Below, piece after piece: positions 5,929 to 25,426 of a DNA stretch of 33,229 bases; position 1 is the stretch's first letter; the number at the start of each line of letters is the position of its first letter. Made by a program: the position numbers and the translations under genes. Under the pieces are notes generated by a model. That model saw only the letters and a program-made list of their open reading frames with translations, did no database searches and had not been told where the DNA came from. The DNA comes from an uncultured Bacilli bacterium. GTDB taxonomy: Bacteria; Bacillota_I; Bacilli_A; RF39; UBA660. Location of the stretch: the NCBI GenBank assembly GCA_947632325.1, contig CANROU010000011.1, forward strand, positions 1 to 33,229. Direction: 5' to 3'.

Positions 5929-6560
5929 AAATCTTATATATAGATACTTCTTCTAGTTATTTATATACAGGCATAGTTGAAGATAATCGTTTGTTAATAG
6001 AAATAAAAGAAAAATTAGATAAGGAATTATCTATTTTTACTTTACCTAAAATTGCTGAAATGCTAGAAAAAGTAAATTTAAAACCTAATGATATTGATAA
6101 GATAATAGTCGTAAATGGACCAGGGTCTTTTACTGGAATCCGTATTGGCATTACAATTGCTAAAACGTATGCATGGACTTTACATAAACCAATTATTATG
6201 TTATCAAGCTTGGAAGCTATGGCTTTATCAGTGAAAACAGATGGATATATTGTACCGATTATTAATGCACGACGTGGTTATGTTTATGGGAGTATATATG
6301 ATGCTCATTACCAAAATATTATTAAGGATCAATATATTTATTATGAAAAGTTACTAGAACAACTAAAACTATTAACGGGTTCTATAGTTATCGTTTCTAA
6401 TGATGATATGGATATGTTTTCCTTAAATAGAGTGAAATATGATCCTGATATATTAAAAATTGTTAAATTTGTTCAAGATCGCGAAACCGTTAATCCTCAT
6501 GCGGTAGAACCAGCGTATTTAAAATTAACAGAGGCGGAAGAAAAAAATCATGATAGTTGA
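5925..6560 (+). CDS. tsaB: tRNA t6A37 biosynthesis protein TsaB
   Basis: A 211-residue ASKHA-fold partner of TsaD. It shows the N-terminal MKILYIDTSS strand and the motif NGPGSFTGIRIG (64-75) typical of TsaB/YeaZ. It scaffolds the TsaD-TsaE complex and has no metal site of its own. Length is normal. Its start overlaps the tsaE stop by 4 bases (ATGA) and its end overlaps rimI by 11 bases, which indicates translational coupling. Confidence 0.95.
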   Translation: MKILYIDTSSSYLYTGIVEDNRLLIEIKEKLDKELSIFTLPKIAEMLEKVNLKPNDIDKIIVVNGPGSFTGIRIGITIAKTYAWTLHKPIIMLSSLEAMALSVKTDGYIVPIINARRGYVYGSIYDAHYQNIIKDQYIYYEKLLEQLKLLTGSIVIVSNDDMDMFSLNRVKYDPDILKIVKFVQDRETVNPHAVEPAYLKLTEAEEKNHDS

Positions 6561-6981
6561 TTTAGAAGAAGATATTTTGTTATGGAATATGTTTTTGACA
6601 TCCTTCAAACATTTGAATTCCCATGATCTTGATGAAGAAAAAAAATATAACCCTTATATACATTATTTATTTTATAAAGTAGATGATAAAATCGTGGGTT
6701 TTTTGAATTATAGCAAGATATATGATAGAATGGAAATTAATCAAATTGAGGTTTTAGAAGATTATCGTCATCAACATATTGGATCACAATTAATAGAAAA
6801 ATTATTATCTATAGCTAAGGATAATAATATTTTAAATATTACCTTAGAAGTGCGTTGTGATAATAATATTGCTGTTAATCTTTATACTAAATATGGCTTT
6901 ATAAAAAAAGCAATTCGTCAAGGGTATTATAGTGGAATAGATGGAATTTTGATGGAAAAAGAGATGAGATATAATGGATAA
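6550..6981 (+). CDS. rimI: Ribosomal protein N-acetyltransferase RimI-like (GNAT)
   Basis: 143 residues of GNAT fold. The acetyl-CoA site is in the segment LEDYRHQHIGSQLIEKLL (R/Q-x-x-G-x-G/S type), followed by LEVRCDNNIAVNLYTKYGF, which is diagnostic for RimI (N-A-x-x-L-Y-x-x-x-G-F). RimI acetylates the N-terminus of ribosomal protein S18 in E. coli; in Bacillota the target is less certain. Its place between tsaB and tsaD is the standard Bacillota order. It overlaps tsaB by 11 bases and tsaD by 8. Confidence 0.9.
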   Translation: MIVDLEEDILLWNMFLTSFKHLNSHDLDEEKKYNPYIHYLFYKVDDKIVGFLNYSKIYDRMEINQIEVLEDYRHQHIGSQLIEKLLSIAKDNNILNITLEVRCDNNIAVNLYTKYGFIKKAIRQGYYSGIDGILMEKEMRYNG

Positions 6982-7975
6982 ATATATATTAGGAATTGAA
7001 AGTAGTTGTGATGAAACTAGTTGCGCTATTGTTAAAAATGGTTGTGAAGAGATTGCTACAGTTGTTTTATCTCAAATTGATATTCACACAGACTTTGGTG
7101 GAGTAGTCCCTGAAATAGCTAGTAGACATCATGTTAAAAATATTACTATGGTAATTGAACAAACATTAAAAAAAGCTAACATGAATATGACTGATATAGA
7201 TGCGATTGCTATTACCTATGGTCCAGGATTAATAGGCTCACTATTAGTTGGTTTAGAAGCGGCTAAAACATTATCTTATATATATCAAAAGCCCCTTATT
7301 CCCGTTCATCATATAGCAGGTCATATTTATGCTAATAGTTTAGTTCGCCCCCTACAATTTCCTTTAATAGCACTAGTTGTCAGTGGTGGCCATACCGATT
7401 TAATAAAAATGGATAGTCATTATTCATTTGAAAAATTAGGTGGAACATTAGATGATGCTGTTGGTGAATGTTATGATAAAGTGGCTAGAGTATTAGGATT
7501 GGGTTATCCAGGAGGACCTAAAATTGATAAATTAGCTAAACAAGGAAATAATACTTATTCTCTACCAACGCCTTTAAATGATGATAGTTATAATTTTAGT
7601 TATAGTGGCTTAAAAAGTGCGGTGATTAATTTAAATCATAAAGAACAACAACGAAAGCAAAAAATAATAAAAGCAGATTTAGCGGCTTCTTTTCAACAGG
7701 TAGTTATTGATTCTTTAATTAAAAAAACTAAAAGAGCCCTTAAAAATAATGATATTCATCATTTAATTATCGCTGGTGGTGTTGCTGCTAATGAAGGTTT
7801 GCGAGAAGCTCTTACTATTATGTGTGAACAAGAAAATATTGATTTGTCGATTCCACCTATTAAATTTTGCACAGATAATGCGGCTATGATTGCTGCAGCA
7901 GGATATTTTGCTTATCAAAAGGGAAGAGTTGCAGATTTAGCCCTTAACAGTAAATCTAGTGATTATCTTCATTAA
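6974..7975 (+). CDS. tsaD: tRNA N6-threonylcarbamoyladenosine transferase TsaD
   Basis: A 333-residue catalytic subunit that transfers threonylcarbamoyl from threonylcarbamoyl-AMP to A37 of tRNA. It has the opening ILGIESSCDET, the metal-binding HHIAGH (112-117), SGGHTDL (137-143), the nucleotide-loop segment GYPGGPKIDKLA, and FCTDNAAMIAAAG near the C-terminus. Length is normal. It is the last gene of the operon and is followed by a terminator shared with deoD. Confidence 0.96.
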   Translation: MDKYILGIESSCDETSCAIVKNGCEEIATVVLSQIDIHTDFGGVVPEIASRHHVKNITMVIEQTLKKANMNMTDIDAIAITYGPGLIGSLLVGLEAAKTLSYIYQKPLIPVHHIAGHIYANSLVRPLQFPLIALVVSGGHTDLIKMDSHYSFEKLGGTLDDAVGECYDKVARVLGLGYPGGPKIDKLAKQGNNTYSLPTPLNDDSYNFSYSGLKSAVINLNHKEQQRKQKIIKADLAASFQQVVIDSLIKKTKRALKNNDIHHLIIAGGVAANEGLREALTIMCEQENIDLSIPPIKFCTDNAAMIAAAGYFAYQKGRVADLALNSKSSDYLH

Positions 7976-17148: not shown

Positions 17149-17478
17149 ATGAAAAAACAAACAGCAGGTAGGGAGCAATTAGGTAATATTGCACCTAAAT
17201 TTGCAGAATTAAATGATGATGTGTTATTTGGACAAGTATGGTCAAGAGAGGATAAGTTATCACCAAGAGATAGAAGTTTAATTACTATATCGGCATTATT
17301 TGCACAAGGATTATATCCACAATTAAAAAGTCATCTTGCCATTGGTAAAGAACATGGTCTTACAAAAGAAGAAGTGGTTGAAGTAGTAACACAATTAGCA
17401 TTTTATTGTGGGTGGCCAAAAGCATGGAGTACCTTCCCTTTAATTGAGGAAGTATATGGAAGTGATAAAAATGAATAA
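17149..17478 (+). CDS. Carboxymuconolactone decarboxylase-like protein
   Basis: A 109-residue all-helical protein of the CMD/AhpD fold. It has the family segment SPRDRSLITISALFAQGLYPQLKSHLAIGKEHGLTKEEV and FYCGWPKAWSTF. The AhpD-type CxxC redox pair is absent; only one Cys is present. It therefore resembles PcaC-like members rather than peroxidase partners. The ribosome site GGAGG is ideal. It follows the broken monooxygenase directly (TAG-ATG). CMD and cupin genes next to flavodoxins are a recurrent set in Bacillota; a role in quinone or aldehyde detoxification is inferred. Confidence 0.9.
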   Translation: MKKQTAGREQLGNIAPKFAELNDDVLFGQVWSREDKLSPRDRSLITISALFAQGLYPQLKSHLAIGKEHGLTKEEVVEVVTQLAFYCGWPKAWSTFPLIEEVYGSDKNE

Positions 17479-17899
17479 ACAAGACTTTGATAAATTAAAT
17501 ATCTTTGGATTAGGAAAGCCAAATGATGCGTATAGAGAGTATTTTACAGGAAATAGTTATTTAAACCCTATTGCAACAACGGAAAATGGAATAAGTTTTG
17601 CAAATGTAACATTTGAGCCGGGATGTAGAAATAATTGGCATATTCATGCATCTAAATCAGGTGGAGGACAAGTTTTAATTTGCACAGCAGGATATGGATA
17701 TTACGGGGAAGAAGGGAAAGAAGTACAAAAATTATCACCAGGGGATATTGTTGTAATACCAGCAAATATAAAACATTGGCATGGGGCAAGAAAAAATTCT
17801 TGGTTTAGTCATATAGCGGTAGAAGTACCAGGGGAAGATACATCAAATGAGTGGTTAGAGCCTGTAACAGATGAAGAATATGATAAATTAGGTGATTAA
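17471..17899 (+). CDS. Cupin-domain protein
   Basis: 142 residues from ATG 17471, with GGAAGTGA upstream and 8 bases overlapping the CMD gene; earlier alternative starts lack a ribosome site. It is a single conserved beta-barrel. Metal-binding positions are visible in cupin motif 1 (NWHIHASKSGGGQ) and motif 2 (PGDIVVIPANIKHWHGA). Such small cupins are found beside CMD and flavin reductase genes and may be metal-dependent dioxygenase- or isomerase-like; the substrate is unknown. It is the last gene of the operon, followed by a terminator. Confidence 0.88.
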   Translation: MNKQDFDKLNIFGLGKPNDAYREYFTGNSYLNPIATTENGISFANVTFEPGCRNNWHIHASKSGGGQVLICTAGYGYYGEEGKEVQKLSPGDIVVIPANIKHWHGARKNSWFSHIAVEVPGEDTSNEWLEPVTDEEYDKLGD

Positions 17900-17909
17900 A
17901 ATAATTGAT

Positions 17910-17939
17910 AAACAGACCATTTATAAGGTTTGTTTTTTT
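17910..17939 (+). terminator. Terminator of the redox operon
   Basis: AAACAGACC and GGTTTGTTT form a 9-bp stem (one G-U pair) with an 8-base loop, running into a T tract. Confidence 0.8.
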
Positions 17940-17963
17940 GTTATAAAATTATCTAAAAAATCA

Positions 17964-17992
17964 TTGTCAAACAAATGTTTGTATTATATAAT
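17964..17992 (+). promoter_or_regulatory. Promoter of the BRO gene with a LexA/DinR-like box
   Basis: TTGTCA (17964-17969), 17-base spacer, TATAAT (17987-17992). Inside the spacer CAAACAAATGTTTG (17968-17981) is a CAAAC-N4-GTTTG dyad. It agrees at 12 of 14 positions with the Bacillota LexA/DinR box CGAAC-RNRY-GTTCG. The same 13-mer AAACAAATGTTTG recurs at the MazF-like promoter. Confidence 0.65.
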
Positions 17993-18014
17993 GCTATTAT
18001 CAAGGAGGTTTTAT

Positions 18015-18872
18015 ATGAATCAAAACAAATTAGAAACAATTTCAAATCTATTTGAGGGAAAGGAAATCATAAGCATTTGGGATAGTGAAAAAGAAGACTA
18101 TTATTTTAGTGTGGTAGATGTGATATCTGCTTTAACTAATAGTATTGAGCCAAGAAAATATTGGTCTGTATTAAAGAATAGACTAAAAAAAGAAGGTAGT
18201 GAACTGACTACAAAATGTAGTCAGTTGAAAATGAAAGCTCCAGATGGAAAAGTAAGATTGAGGGATGCCTTAGATACTAAAGGTATTTTAAGACTAATTG
18301 AGTCAGTTCCTAGTCCAAAAGCAGAGCCTTTTAAACTATGGCTGGCTAATTTAGGAAGTGAAAGAATAGATGAAGTATTTGATCCCGAGATTGCTATTAA
18401 AAGAGCGATTAACTATTATCGAAAAAGGGGATATTCTGATAGATGGATAGAAACTAGATTAAAAGGAATACTAGATAGAAATAAACTAACTAATGTATGG
18501 AAAGAAGGAGGTATTTCACAAGAGTATGAATATGGAATCCTTACTAATGAAATATATAAAGAATGGTCTGGTATGAAAGCAAATGAATATAAAGCATATA
18601 AAGGTATTAGAAAAGAATCTTTAAGGGACAATATGTCTGATATAGAAATTGTTCTCACTGATTTAGGAGAAATTGCGACACGAGAACTTGCCAGAGAACA
18701 TAAGCCTCATGGATTCAAACAAAATAAAGTTATTGCTAAAATGGGTGGACACGCAGCAAAGGCTGCTAGAGATGATATTGAAAAGAATTTAGGCAAATCA
18801 GTAATCAGTAATCAAAATAATCTTAACTATCAATATTTAGAGAATAAAGAAAAATTGGAAAATAAAAAATAG
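18015..18872 (+). CDS. BRO-N (phage antirepressor-like) protein
   Basis: 285 residues from ATG 18015, with AAGGAGG 8 bases upstream. The N-terminal 120 residues form a BRO-N domain (IISIWDSEKEDYYFSVVDVI, then YWSVLKNRLKKEG, then LRDALDTKGILRLIESVPSP). This DNA-binding module is common in phage antirepressors and element-borne proteins. The C-terminal part (about 140-270) contains helices seen in chromosomal relatives of this family and ends in a basic segment (KMGGHAAKAARDDIEKNLGKSV). It has its own promoter with a LexA-like operator. It lies between an intact cupin gene and the remains of a second one. A role in switching an element or in stress response is plausible. Confidence 0.85.
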   Translation: MNQNKLETISNLFEGKEIISIWDSEKEDYYFSVVDVISALTNSIEPRKYWSVLKNRLKKEGSELTTKCSQLKMKAPDGKVRLRDALDTKGILRLIESVPSPKAEPFKLWLANLGSERIDEVFDPEIAIKRAINYYRKRGYSDRWIETRLKGILDRNKLTNVWKEGGISQEYEYGILTNEIYKEWSGMKANEYKAYKGIRKESLRDNMSDIEIVLTDLGEIATRELAREHKPHGFKQNKVIAKMGGHAAKAARDDIEKNLGKSVISNQNNLNYQYLENKEKLENKK

Positions 18873-22410: not shown

Positions 22411-22878
22411 ATGGAAGTAATCATTAAAAAGGCTACTTTAAAAGATGCTGCAGTCGCTAATCAATTTTTAACAAAATTAATTCATGATGAGAAACAGTAT
22501 GATGAAAATATTAATGAGAATTGCATAGTTTCTAATTGTTATGAAAATTTTATGGAAAATGAAAATAATTGTATCTTATTAGCTATCGTGGGTAATAAAA
22601 TTGTAGGTTATTTATATGGCTATATTGTGGATAATGGTGATGCTTATTTAGAAAAGGTTAGTATGTTGGAAGCTATGTTTATTGAACAAGAATATAGATT
22701 ACAGCAAATTGGGCATAAACTTATTCAAGAATTCAAAAATTGGTCACGGCATAAAAAGGCACGTTATATGGAACTTAAAGTATGTGCTCAAAATGAGATA
22801 GCTCGTAGTTTATATCAAAAGGAGGGCTTTCATGTTGTTAAATATGTTATGACAACTAAATTGGAGGAAGAAAAATGA
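22411..22878 (+). CDS. GNAT acetyltransferase of the RiPP-like locus
   Basis: 155 residues of GNAT fold. The acetyl-CoA loop is EQEYRLQQIGHKLIQEF (about 95-111), and LKVCAQNEIARSLYQKEGF (about 127-145) is the C-terminal hallmark. GGGAGGGG is the ribosome site. Its stop overlaps the start of the radical SAM gene (ATGA), so the two are co-translated. It could acetylate the peptide product (N-terminus or Lys), give self-resistance, or act on another substrate; the linkage suggests a tailoring or immunity role but does not prove it. Confidence 0.85.
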   Translation: MEVIIKKATLKDAAVANQFLTKLIHDEKQYDENINENCIVSNCYENFMENENNCILLAIVGNKIVGYLYGYIVDNGDAYLEKVSMLEAMFIEQEYRLQQIGHKLIQEFKNWSRHKKARYMELKVCAQNEIARSLYQKEGFHVVKYVMTTKLEEEK

Positions 22879-24212
22879 AATTATCTCGATTTTACCATGA
22901 AGTTCCTCTAAAAAATTCTATTTATGCTATATATAATTCTTTGATTATGGATGTTATTTATGTAAATGAAGAAAAATTATCCCAAATAAAAAAATTAGAT
23001 TTATTGTTAGATGAAATAAAATTATTAAAAGAGAAGGGTATATTAATTAGTGATGATAAGCAAGATGAAGAAGCTCTTCTTAGTATAAAGAAACGTTATG
23101 ATATGATAACCGGAAAAATTCAAATTCTCTATCTTATATTGTCTTCTTCCTGTAATTTAGCGTGTAAATATTGTTTTATTGAAAATGGAGAATTCAACAA
23201 TAAAAAAGAAATTAATATGTCAAAAGATATTGCTTTTATGGCTATTTCTAAATATGCAAAATATTTAGAAGATGAAAATATCAAAGAAGGTTTGATTATC
23301 TTTTATGGAGGGGAACCTTTTGTTAATTGGACTGTTATGAAGGAAGTTATTAATTATGCTAAAAAAATTACTAAACGTTTGAAATTTTCCGTTGTTACTA
23401 ATGCTACTTTATTAGATGAAGAAAAGATAAAATTTTTAGCCGAGAATGAAGTGGAAGTAGGTATTTCGATTGATGGTCCTAAAAAATTAAATGATAAGAA
23501 TCGTATTTATCGTTATGGCCATAAAAGTGTATATGATTTAGTTGTCACTAAGTTTCCTCAATTAAGTGTTCATAATTGTAAATACGGATTGTCAATTACA
23601 GTGTCTAATGATTTGCTTTTGTATCAAGATGAAGTGCTACAATGGCTGAAAGAATTAGGTGTAACTAGTATTTTCTATAATTTGTATCATTATACTAGTT
23701 ATTCTAATGATTGGGAAAAATACTACAATGAGGCCAGCGCCTTTTTATTAAAATCATATCAAATGTTATCACCAGAGGGTATTTATGATGGTAGGATGCA
23801 AAGAAAACTAGACAGTATACTACAAAATGAATTTAAGTTTTCAGACTGTGGTGCCATAGGAGGCAATCAATTGACTGTTAAACCAAATGGTGATGTGTGT
23901 ATTTGCCATGGCTATTTGAAAACAGATAAATATGTCATGGGGAATATTGAAAAGAATACAATAAAAGAGATGTTAGTATCAGATGAGATGGCTTTTTGGC
24001 GAAATCGTAATACTTTAAATAATGCAGAATGTCTTAAATGCCCTAGTTTATTTATTTGCGGTGGTGGTTGTGCTATTCAAGCCGAAGCTTTATTTGGTAA
24101 TCGTAGTAATATCGATTTGCCATTTTGTATTCATACTAAATCATCATTACAATGGATTTTACAAACTAGTTATGATTTGATGATAAAAAATAGAGAAAAG
24201 GAGGTGGTATAA
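22875..24212 (+). CDS. Radical SAM/SPASM peptide maturase
   Basis: 445 residues. Residues 1-80 look like a peptide-recognition (PqqD/RRE-like) region with a Leu-rich helix and KGILI turn. The radical SAM core has Cys93-x3-Cys97-x2-Cys100 for the SAM-binding 4Fe-4S cluster and GGEP at 145-148. The C-terminal SPASM region carries Cys325, 342, 344, 386, 389, 395, 399 and 418, enough for two auxiliary clusters. This architecture is that of enzymes forming thioether or other crosslinks in Cys-rich RiPPs (sactipeptide and ranthipeptide maturases such as those for SCIFF, or the clostridial CcpM-type). The gene directly downstream encodes a six-Cys peptide. It overlaps the GNAT gene by 4 bases. Confidence 0.92.
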   Translation: MKLSRFYHEVPLKNSIYAIYNSLIMDVIYVNEEKLSQIKKLDLLLDEIKLLKEKGILISDDKQDEEALLSIKKRYDMITGKIQILYLILSSSCNLACKYCFIENGEFNNKKEINMSKDIAFMAISKYAKYLEDENIKEGLIIFYGGEPFVNWTVMKEVINYAKKITKRLKFSVVTNATLLDEEKIKFLAENEVEVGISIDGPKKLNDKNRIYRYGHKSVYDLVVTKFPQLSVHNCKYGLSITVSNDLLLYQDEVLQWLKELGVTSIFYNLYHYTSYSNDWEKYYNEASAFLLKSYQMLSPEGIYDGRMQRKLDSILQNEFKFSDCGAIGGNQLTVKPNGDVCICHGYLKTDKYVMGNIEKNTIKEMLVSDEMAFWRNRNTLNNAECLKCPSLFICGGGCAIQAEALFGNRSNIDLPFCIHTKSSLQWILQTSYDLMIKNREKEVV

Positions 24213-24392
24213 ATGTTAATATTGGATAGAGACAAAACAAGCCAAAAAATGAACAACAACAGGACTATTTATGCCTCAGTATGTAATAGTTGCGCTTGTG
24301 GTGGCGGTATTTCTTCTTGCAATACAACTTGCAAAGGCTGTAAAGATAAGAATGAAAATGTTGTTGAAGTAAGAAAAGCTTATACAAAATAA
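24213..24392 (+). CDS. Six-cysteine RiPP precursor peptide (candidate)
   Basis: 59 residues, starting immediately after the radical SAM stop, with AAGGAGGTGG ending 5 bases before the ATG inside the upstream gene. A polar leader of about 22 residues precedes a core with six Cys at positions 24, 27, 29, 36, 40 and 43, spaced C-x2-C-x-C-x6-C-x3-C-x2-C around a GGG-ISS centre. A charged 16-residue tail follows. There is no hydrophobic signal segment. Cys content (6 of 20 core residues), size and position fit the substrate of the adjacent radical SAM/SPASM enzyme. It might relate to clostridial Cys-rich families (SCIFF, Clo7bot, CLI_3235), but its Cys spacing is not one I can assign. A small metal-binding protein is the main alternative. 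Confidence 0.85.
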   Translation: MLILDRDKTSQKMNNNRTIYASVCNSCACGGGISSCNTTCKGCKDKNENVVEVRKAYTK

Positions 24393-24396
24393 AACG

Positions 24397-24423
24397 AAGC
24401 CATATGAAAATTATGGCTTTTTT
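24397..24423 (+). terminator. Terminator after the precursor peptide
   Basis: Perfect 8-bp stem AAGCCATA / TATGGCTT with a 7-base loop followed by T. The next gene's ribosome site (AGGAGG, 24427-24432) begins almost at once, with no room for a promoter. The amidohydrolase is therefore expressed by readthrough, giving a high peptide-to-enzyme ratio. Confidence 0.82.
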
Positions 24424-24439
24424 GATAGGAGGATAAATT

Positions 24440-25426
24440 ATGATAATTGATACTCATAGCCATGTAGGGATAGATTATTATGGTGGTGAAATGCCTGTTG
24501 AAGAATATCAAAAAGTTGCGCAACAAATTGGAGTTGATGTGGGGTTTTTAATGCCACCACCTTGGCCTTGTATAAGAGAAAATGATCAAGTTAATGCTCA
24601 ATTGCTTTGGGAACATGATAATTATGTTATTAATCACTATTTTAAATTACAGTCGAATAATCAAAAAAAGGCTATCTCAGTTAATCCTTATCGTAAAATA
24701 AATGATTATTATTTTTCAATTGTGGAAAATGCTTCTAGTATCGATAGACCTTTGTTTTTTGTGCCACTTATACATGGTGTTTTAGATACAGCCGAATATT
24801 TAGAGGAGTTATTACGTAATCCTAAAATCATTGCGGTCAAAATTCATGGTTTTGGAAGTGGTTTTTTTGCCGAAGATATTAGATCTGATTTAATAGAATT
24901 AATGCGTTATTATCAAGTACCTTTAATTATACATACCTCTGTTTATAATTATAACGTTGGTTATGGAAAAGATACTAAATACTTTCGAAATAAATGTCAT
25001 CCACTGAATTGGGCTAAGTTTTTAATTGGTAATCAATTAAAGGGCGTTTTAAATCATGGTGCGGCTTTAAATGAGGAAACTATAGAGTTGGTTAATAAAC
25101 ATGATAATTTAATGATTGGCATAGGGCCTGACGCTGATTTAAATAATGATTATTATAAAATGGATATTTCTAAACAACAATTGAGAAAAGGGTACTTGCC
25201 TTTATTAAAGAAAAATGTCGATCCCAATAAATTATTATTTGATGTTGATTACAAATGGAATATTGATCCTGATAGTAATCAATTAGATGTTAATCAACTA
25301 TCACGATTAATGTCTATATGGAATGATGACGAGTTTTCATTGATTACCTGTCAAAATGCGCGATCATTTTATCCGCGTATGGAAAATAATGCTACTTTTA
25401 AACAATACGTTAAAAAGAAATATTAA
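24440..25426 (+). CDS. Metal-dependent amidohydrolase of the RiPP-like locus
   Basis: 328-residue TIM-barrel amidohydrolase. Ligand positions visible: His6 and His8 (DTHSHVG), His136 (VKIHGFG), His165 (IIHTS), His206 (LNHGAA) and Asp268/270 (LLFDVDYKW). So, unlike the amidohydrolase at 14794, the DxHxH motif is complete. It may open a ring or remove a group on a peptide or small molecule. AGGAGG is 7 bases before ATG. Because the only transcript that can reach it comes through the terminator after the peptide gene, it is probably part of the same locus. It is unrelated to the peptidases usually seen in RiPP clusters, so its role is open. Confidence 0.82.
   Translation: MIIDTHSHVGIDYYGGEMPVEEYQKVAQQIGVDVGFLMPPPWPCIRENDQVNAQLLWEHDNYVINHYFKLQSNNQKKAISVNPYRKINDYYFSIVENASSIDRPLFFVPLIHGVLDTAEYLEELLRNPKIIAVKIHGFGSGFFAEDIRSDLIELMRYYQVPLIIHTSVYNYNVGYGKDTKYFRNKCHPLNWAKFLIGNQLKGVLNHGAALNEETIELVNKHDNLMIGIGPDADLNNDYYKMDISKQQLRKGYLPLLKKNVDPNKLLFDVDYKWNIDPDSNQLDVNQLSRLMSIWNDDEFSLITCQNARSFYPRMENNATFKQYVKKKY

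Follow-up and report, generated by a model that had tools for sequence, protein, structure and literature searches.

The FibroRumin system is the closest described system to the locus reported here, and its maturases are collected in the NCBIfam family TIGR04136. FibroRumin precursors have a leader, a Cys core placed in the middle and a charged tail. Most FibroRumin loci that we collected carried two or more Cys-rich precursors upstream of the maturase, and a shortened UvrA-like ABC ATPase stood beside the true FibroRumin maturase gene in at least 13 of 15 loci (L051, L065-L069, L071, L073-L076, L078 and L081). In clusters for DNA-binding drugs, uvrA-like genes give self-resistance (PMC10413001). 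The other systems to be compared are SCIFF with its ranthipeptide maturase CteB, CcpM, and the ranthipeptide maturase PapB, whose thioether chemistry is known (PMC9413430). The literature searched, which included few subscription journals and preprints, contained no paper on FibroRumin or TIGR04136, and no title on the system described below (radical SAM with RlmA or UvrA, RiPPs of Mollicutes).

The window, which means the whole analysed stretch of 33,229 nucleotides from an uncultured Bacilli bacterium (contig CANROU010000011.1), holds a cassette of four genes on the plus strand, in the order GNAT, radical SAM/SPASM maturase, 59-aa peptide and amidohydrolase. The first gene (22411-22878) encodes a GNAT-family N-acetyltransferase of 155 aa (Pfam PF00583, 8.8e-14), and its end overlaps by 4 nt (ATGA) with the gene of a radical SAM/SPASM peptide maturase of 445 aa (22875-24212; PF04055, 1.8e-15; PF13186, 2.7e-9). 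The stop codon TAA of the maturase gene (24210-24212) abuts the ATG of the peptide gene (24213-24392), which is preceded by a strong ribosome binding site, AAAGGAGGTGG. The initial annotation had described the overlap, the spacing of zero bases and a near-ideal ribosome site, and the coordinates were confirmed. It had also placed a terminator after the peptide gene; a hairpin like that of rho-independent terminators is indeed present with a T-run at 24396-24420 (-10.8 kcal/mol, z -4.7), but it is not kept in the loci of relatives. The last gene (24440-25426), which had been missed, encodes a metal-dependent amidohydrolase-like TIM-barrel protein of 328 aa. An ABC transporter operon adjoins the cassette in this genome.

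The precursor peptide, MLILDRDKTSQKMNNNRTIYASVCNSCACGGGISSCNTTCKGCKDKNENVVEVRKAYTK, has Cys at positions 24, 27, 29, 36, 40 and 43, and these are spaced x2, x1, x6, x3 and x2 exactly as first reported. The Cys core (residues 24-43, CNSCACGGGISSCNTTCKGC, 24282-24341) is followed by the charged C-terminal tail KDKNENVVEVRKAYTK (24342-24389). The peptide gene is the sole ORF of 40-80 aa with at least six Cys in the window, against 0.17 expected from Markov copies of the window. Conservation is stronger evidence for the peptide than this count of chance ORFs. There was one close match among 193 sampled genomes of the family. A scan of genome contigs with the single sequence gave no match, whereas an alignment-based contig scan recovered relatives. 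Clade A consists of the window's genome and four species that belong to a single other genus (L056, L057, L058 and L148), whose precursors share 59-65% identity with that of the window. None of the six Cys varies among the five sequences, and invariant columns made up 19/23 of the core region and 10/16 of the tail, against 0/20 of the leader. Pairwise dN/dS was 0.13-0.23, values which are rough because synonymous sites are near saturation, and the computation shows that the peptide is under purifying selection. Searches of NCBIfam and Pfam gave no family and no RiPP precursor model, and the one NCBIfam match was at chance level (E 2.5), which agrees with the early impression that the peptide fits no known family.

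The identical order of four genes was found in L056, L057, L058 and L148. Looking for the trio of genes in other genomes had been proposed as a check, and it recurs in these four species with the amidohydrolase included. The peptide and the maturase are adjacent in all five genomes of clade A, so that a short precursor with a conserved core stands beside the enzyme in each of them. The initial annotation had named as grounds against the pairing a peptide that is not conserved in homologous loci, or a better substrate beside the homologous enzymes; neither was found. The genes that flank the cassette in L056-L058 are uvrA on one side and lgt on the other (order uvrA...lgt-trxB). In the window's genome the same site holds uvrA, a small membrane-protein-like gene and lgt, and the cassette is elsewhere. 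The four genes have therefore moved as a group, and this speaks for GNAT and amidohydrolase as parts of the system. It is shown by computation that the four cassette genes behave as one unit.

The uvrA gene beside the cassette in L056-L058 was considered as a functional partner like that of FibroRumin and was rejected, because it is a full-length gene and the window's genome keeps the order of uvrA and lgt without the cassette.

It is extremely improbable that the peptide is instead a small protein with a structural or regulatory role and has its place next to the maturase by chance. The strong conservation of the charged tail would suit such a protein, and so would the result that no conserved exporter or protease gene was found next to the clade-A cassettes. 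Against it, the pairing persists in two genera although the cassette has a different genome position in each, and analogous pairs are found in two further subclades. We consider with good confidence that the peptide and the maturase are the substrate and the enzyme of a radical-SAM RiPP pair.

Many cassettes, both in this group and in FibroRumin loci, have recombinase, relaxase-like or plasmid genes nearby (L060, L061, L151, L059, L065, L066, L069 and L051), and the recombinases are of the serine type. The L061 cassette stands between two recombinase genes, and the operon apparently interrupted by this island is the ABC transporter operon next to which the window's cassette also lies. Cupin-like and BRO-type genes were present upstream of the cassette in the window (17444-18872) and in the subclade-C locus L060 (859-2295).

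Orthologues of the GNAT stand in the same place in the four other species, with about 47-52% identity. The cassette GNAT is related to the housekeeping RimI of the window (6550-6981; 34% over 82 aa). It was rejected as the RimI orthologue because a separate RimI is present. Every clade-A locus likewise has an orthologue of the amidohydrolase at the corresponding position, and the residues H6, H8, H136, H165, H206, D268 and D270 are invariant. Its AF2 model had a pLDDT of 87 and found amidohydrolases in Foldseek at E 3e-9. The gene at 24440-25426 belongs to the conserved unit. Distant relatives of this amidohydrolase from other parts of the bacterial family were seen in L144 and L145 near a GNAT of another subfamily, and the fetched stretches had no radical SAM gene.

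The AF2 model of the maturase had a pLDDT of 91.4. Residues 1-78 (22875-23108; pLDDT 93-97 by block) are modelled as three strands followed by three helices (b3a3), which is the order of an RRE. The CX3CX2C motif of the radical SAM cluster (C93, C97 and C100; 23151-23174) is invariant in an alignment of 17 rows, and the SPASM region (23847-24128; PF13186) follows, so the enzyme has both domains of a general radical SAM/SPASM RiPP maturase. The CX3CX2C motif and eight SPASM Cys had been noted before and are all present, but just seven of the eight (325, 344, 386, 389, 395, 399 and 418) are invariant in relatives, and C342 varies. The top Foldseek match of the model was CteB (5why, E 1.4e-23), matched along almost the whole length. 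On the modelled structure, the computation shows a radical SAM/SPASM peptide maturase with a predicted RRE fold.

CteB is a thioether-forming maturase. The next matches were TigE (8vpo), nearly as close, and anaerobic sulfatase maturases; TigE is linked to the formation of cyclopropylglycine, not of thioethers. The cyclopropylglycine product is described in PMC9062424. Because TigE does different chemistry, the fold alone does not prove thioethers. By analogy with related enzymes, we moderately favour thioethers as the modification. A bond to an alpha carbon would make the product a sactipeptide, and one to a beta or gamma carbon a ranthipeptide. It is unlikely that the maturase makes something other than a thioether (a cyclopropane, an epimer or a C-C link, for example) and that the six Cys serve for metal binding or disulfides. 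TigE and the sulfatase maturases as close structural neighbours would fit this, and so would the Cys-x-Cys runs in the precursors of subclades B and C described below, which also look metal-binding. On the other side, thioether makers are among the closest sequence families (PapB) and give the best structural match (CteB), none of the six Cys varies, and the core lacks aromatic residues from which cyclophanes could form.

Two further subclades, B and C, come from the same bacterial family, and their maturases have 40-44% identity to that of the window. L064 apart, a Cys-rich peptide was found beside every maturase of the whole clade whose gene is intact and whose flanks can be seen. The precursor of subclade B has its Cys mainly in the motif CxCxxCNCNC and usually lies upstream on the opposite strand, while that of subclade C has five Cys, carries the same motif and lies directly downstream. 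In profile comparisons, which involve few and Cys-rich sequences and must be read with care, the window's precursor group matched the B/C group with 91.8% probability over the whole length, but FibroRumin precursors with only 26% and 2%. The maturase of L064 is outlying (37% identity) and joins subclade B; neither a Cys-rich precursor nor an RlmA-like gene was found near it. This gene (5998-7332) is in a genome bin labelled Alphaproteobacteria.

In place of GNAT and amidohydrolase, the B/C loci have a gene for a TlrB/RlmA-like 23S rRNA methyltransferase, which is present in every locus except L064 and has as its immediate downstream neighbour the maturase, or the maturase together with a second methyltransferase. 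It was a single copy inside the cassette in 8 of 8 B/C genomes checked, and the four clade-A genomes checked have none. A stand-alone RlmA-like gene with no such maturase adjacent occurs in four genomes of the family sample, so the gene also exists apart from the cassette. TlrB and RlmAII, which are relatives of this enzyme, methylate 23S rRNA at G748 in helix 35, and this methylation changes the binding of, or the resistance to, macrolides or ketolides (PMC4605293 and PMC6851288). The linked methyltransferases suggest, by analogy, that the B/C products may act on the ribosome. In L055, L072, L084 and L154 the maturase is broken or cut short beside the RlmA-like gene, and L055 and L084 still have the precursor as well.

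In the mechanism that we propose, the RRE domain of the maturase would bind the 59-aa peptide by its variable leader, and the SPASM-type active site would modify the invariant Cys core, most likely with the formation of thioether bonds from the six Cys. GNAT and amidohydrolase may finish the product, or they may protect the producer or act on the target of the product, and the product would be secreted. A role of the neighbour genes in self-protection is a tentative analogy, which we find somewhat unlikely. As the neighbour genes differ between the subclades, they may not share one role. A wider and quite doubtful reading would be a superfamily with a common maturation core and exchangeable, target-specific self-protection genes, namely the UvrA-like ATPase in FibroRumin, the TlrB/RlmA-like methyltransferase in B/C and GNAT with amidohydrolase in the window's subclade, in which the thioether peptides of B/C would act on the ribosomal exit tunnel. 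This idea comes from the difference of the partner gene between clades, which is a correlation only.

To our knowledge, few peptide products are known from uncultured gut Bacilli/Mollicutes with tiny genomes. The present system defines a precursor family and a maturase clade in these organisms. It also connects such maturases with a family of rRNA methyltransferases of antibiotic resistance, so the target of these peptides becomes directly testable.

Among the known systems, SCIFF/CteB gives the best match of solved structure, with RRE, radical SAM and SPASM, and has a short peptide with six Cys. But the window's maturase reached only 154.4 bits on TIGR03974 (cut-off 425), SCIFF being among its best families, and the peptide matches no SCIFF model. 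PapB (NF047865) is the second-best family, with 175.8 bits against a cut-off of 340, and the precursor differs from those of PapB in having no Cys-X3-Asp/Glu repeats. CcpM (TIGR04068) likewise combines a Cys-rich peptide with a radical SAM maturase; here the score was 120.9 bits against a cut-off of 500, and the precursor matches no model.

TIGR04136 was the best NCBIfam family of the maturase, matched over nearly the full length, but the score of 231.9 bits stays below the cut-off of 400. Five further clade members reached 190-248 bits, whereas true FibroRumin enzymes scored 734-794. In the tree, ten clade members were split from 15 FibroRumin enzymes with a support of 99/100; this tree excludes the frameshifted row L070, carries a long-branch warning and does not fix the order in which the three subclades branch. 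The sequences thus assign the maturase to a well-supported clade from uncultured Bacilli/Mollicutes that is distinct from FibroRumin and sister to it.

An ordinary FibroRumin system that had diverged would also show this best family and the similar precursor layout, but we regard this reading as improbable. Besides the low score and the separate clade, the precursor had no match to TIGR04135 at E<=10, where the cut-off is 45 bits and controls from Campylobacter score 54.9 and 62.0, and the profile match to FibroRumin precursors was weak as given above. The window has a single precursor downstream of the maturase with the pattern CxxCxC-GGG-CxxxCxxC, without the YxxMFGxI leader and without the terminal EW, and it has GNAT and amidohydrolase instead of the UvrA-like ATPase. 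A UvrA-like gene downstream and at least two upstream precursors, a combination drawn from the loci here and not a published definition, were not seen in the window. As far as the sequences can tell, the precursor family is missing from NCBIfam and Pfam and is related to, but distinct from, the FibroRumin peptides, and the window's system is best described as sister to the FibroRumin system and outside it. The initial annotation had suggested a new class, which does not hold for an enzyme closest to the FibroRumin system, with its matching precursor layout. Radical SAM RiPPs of this kind are already known, so the window carries a new variant beside FibroRumin.
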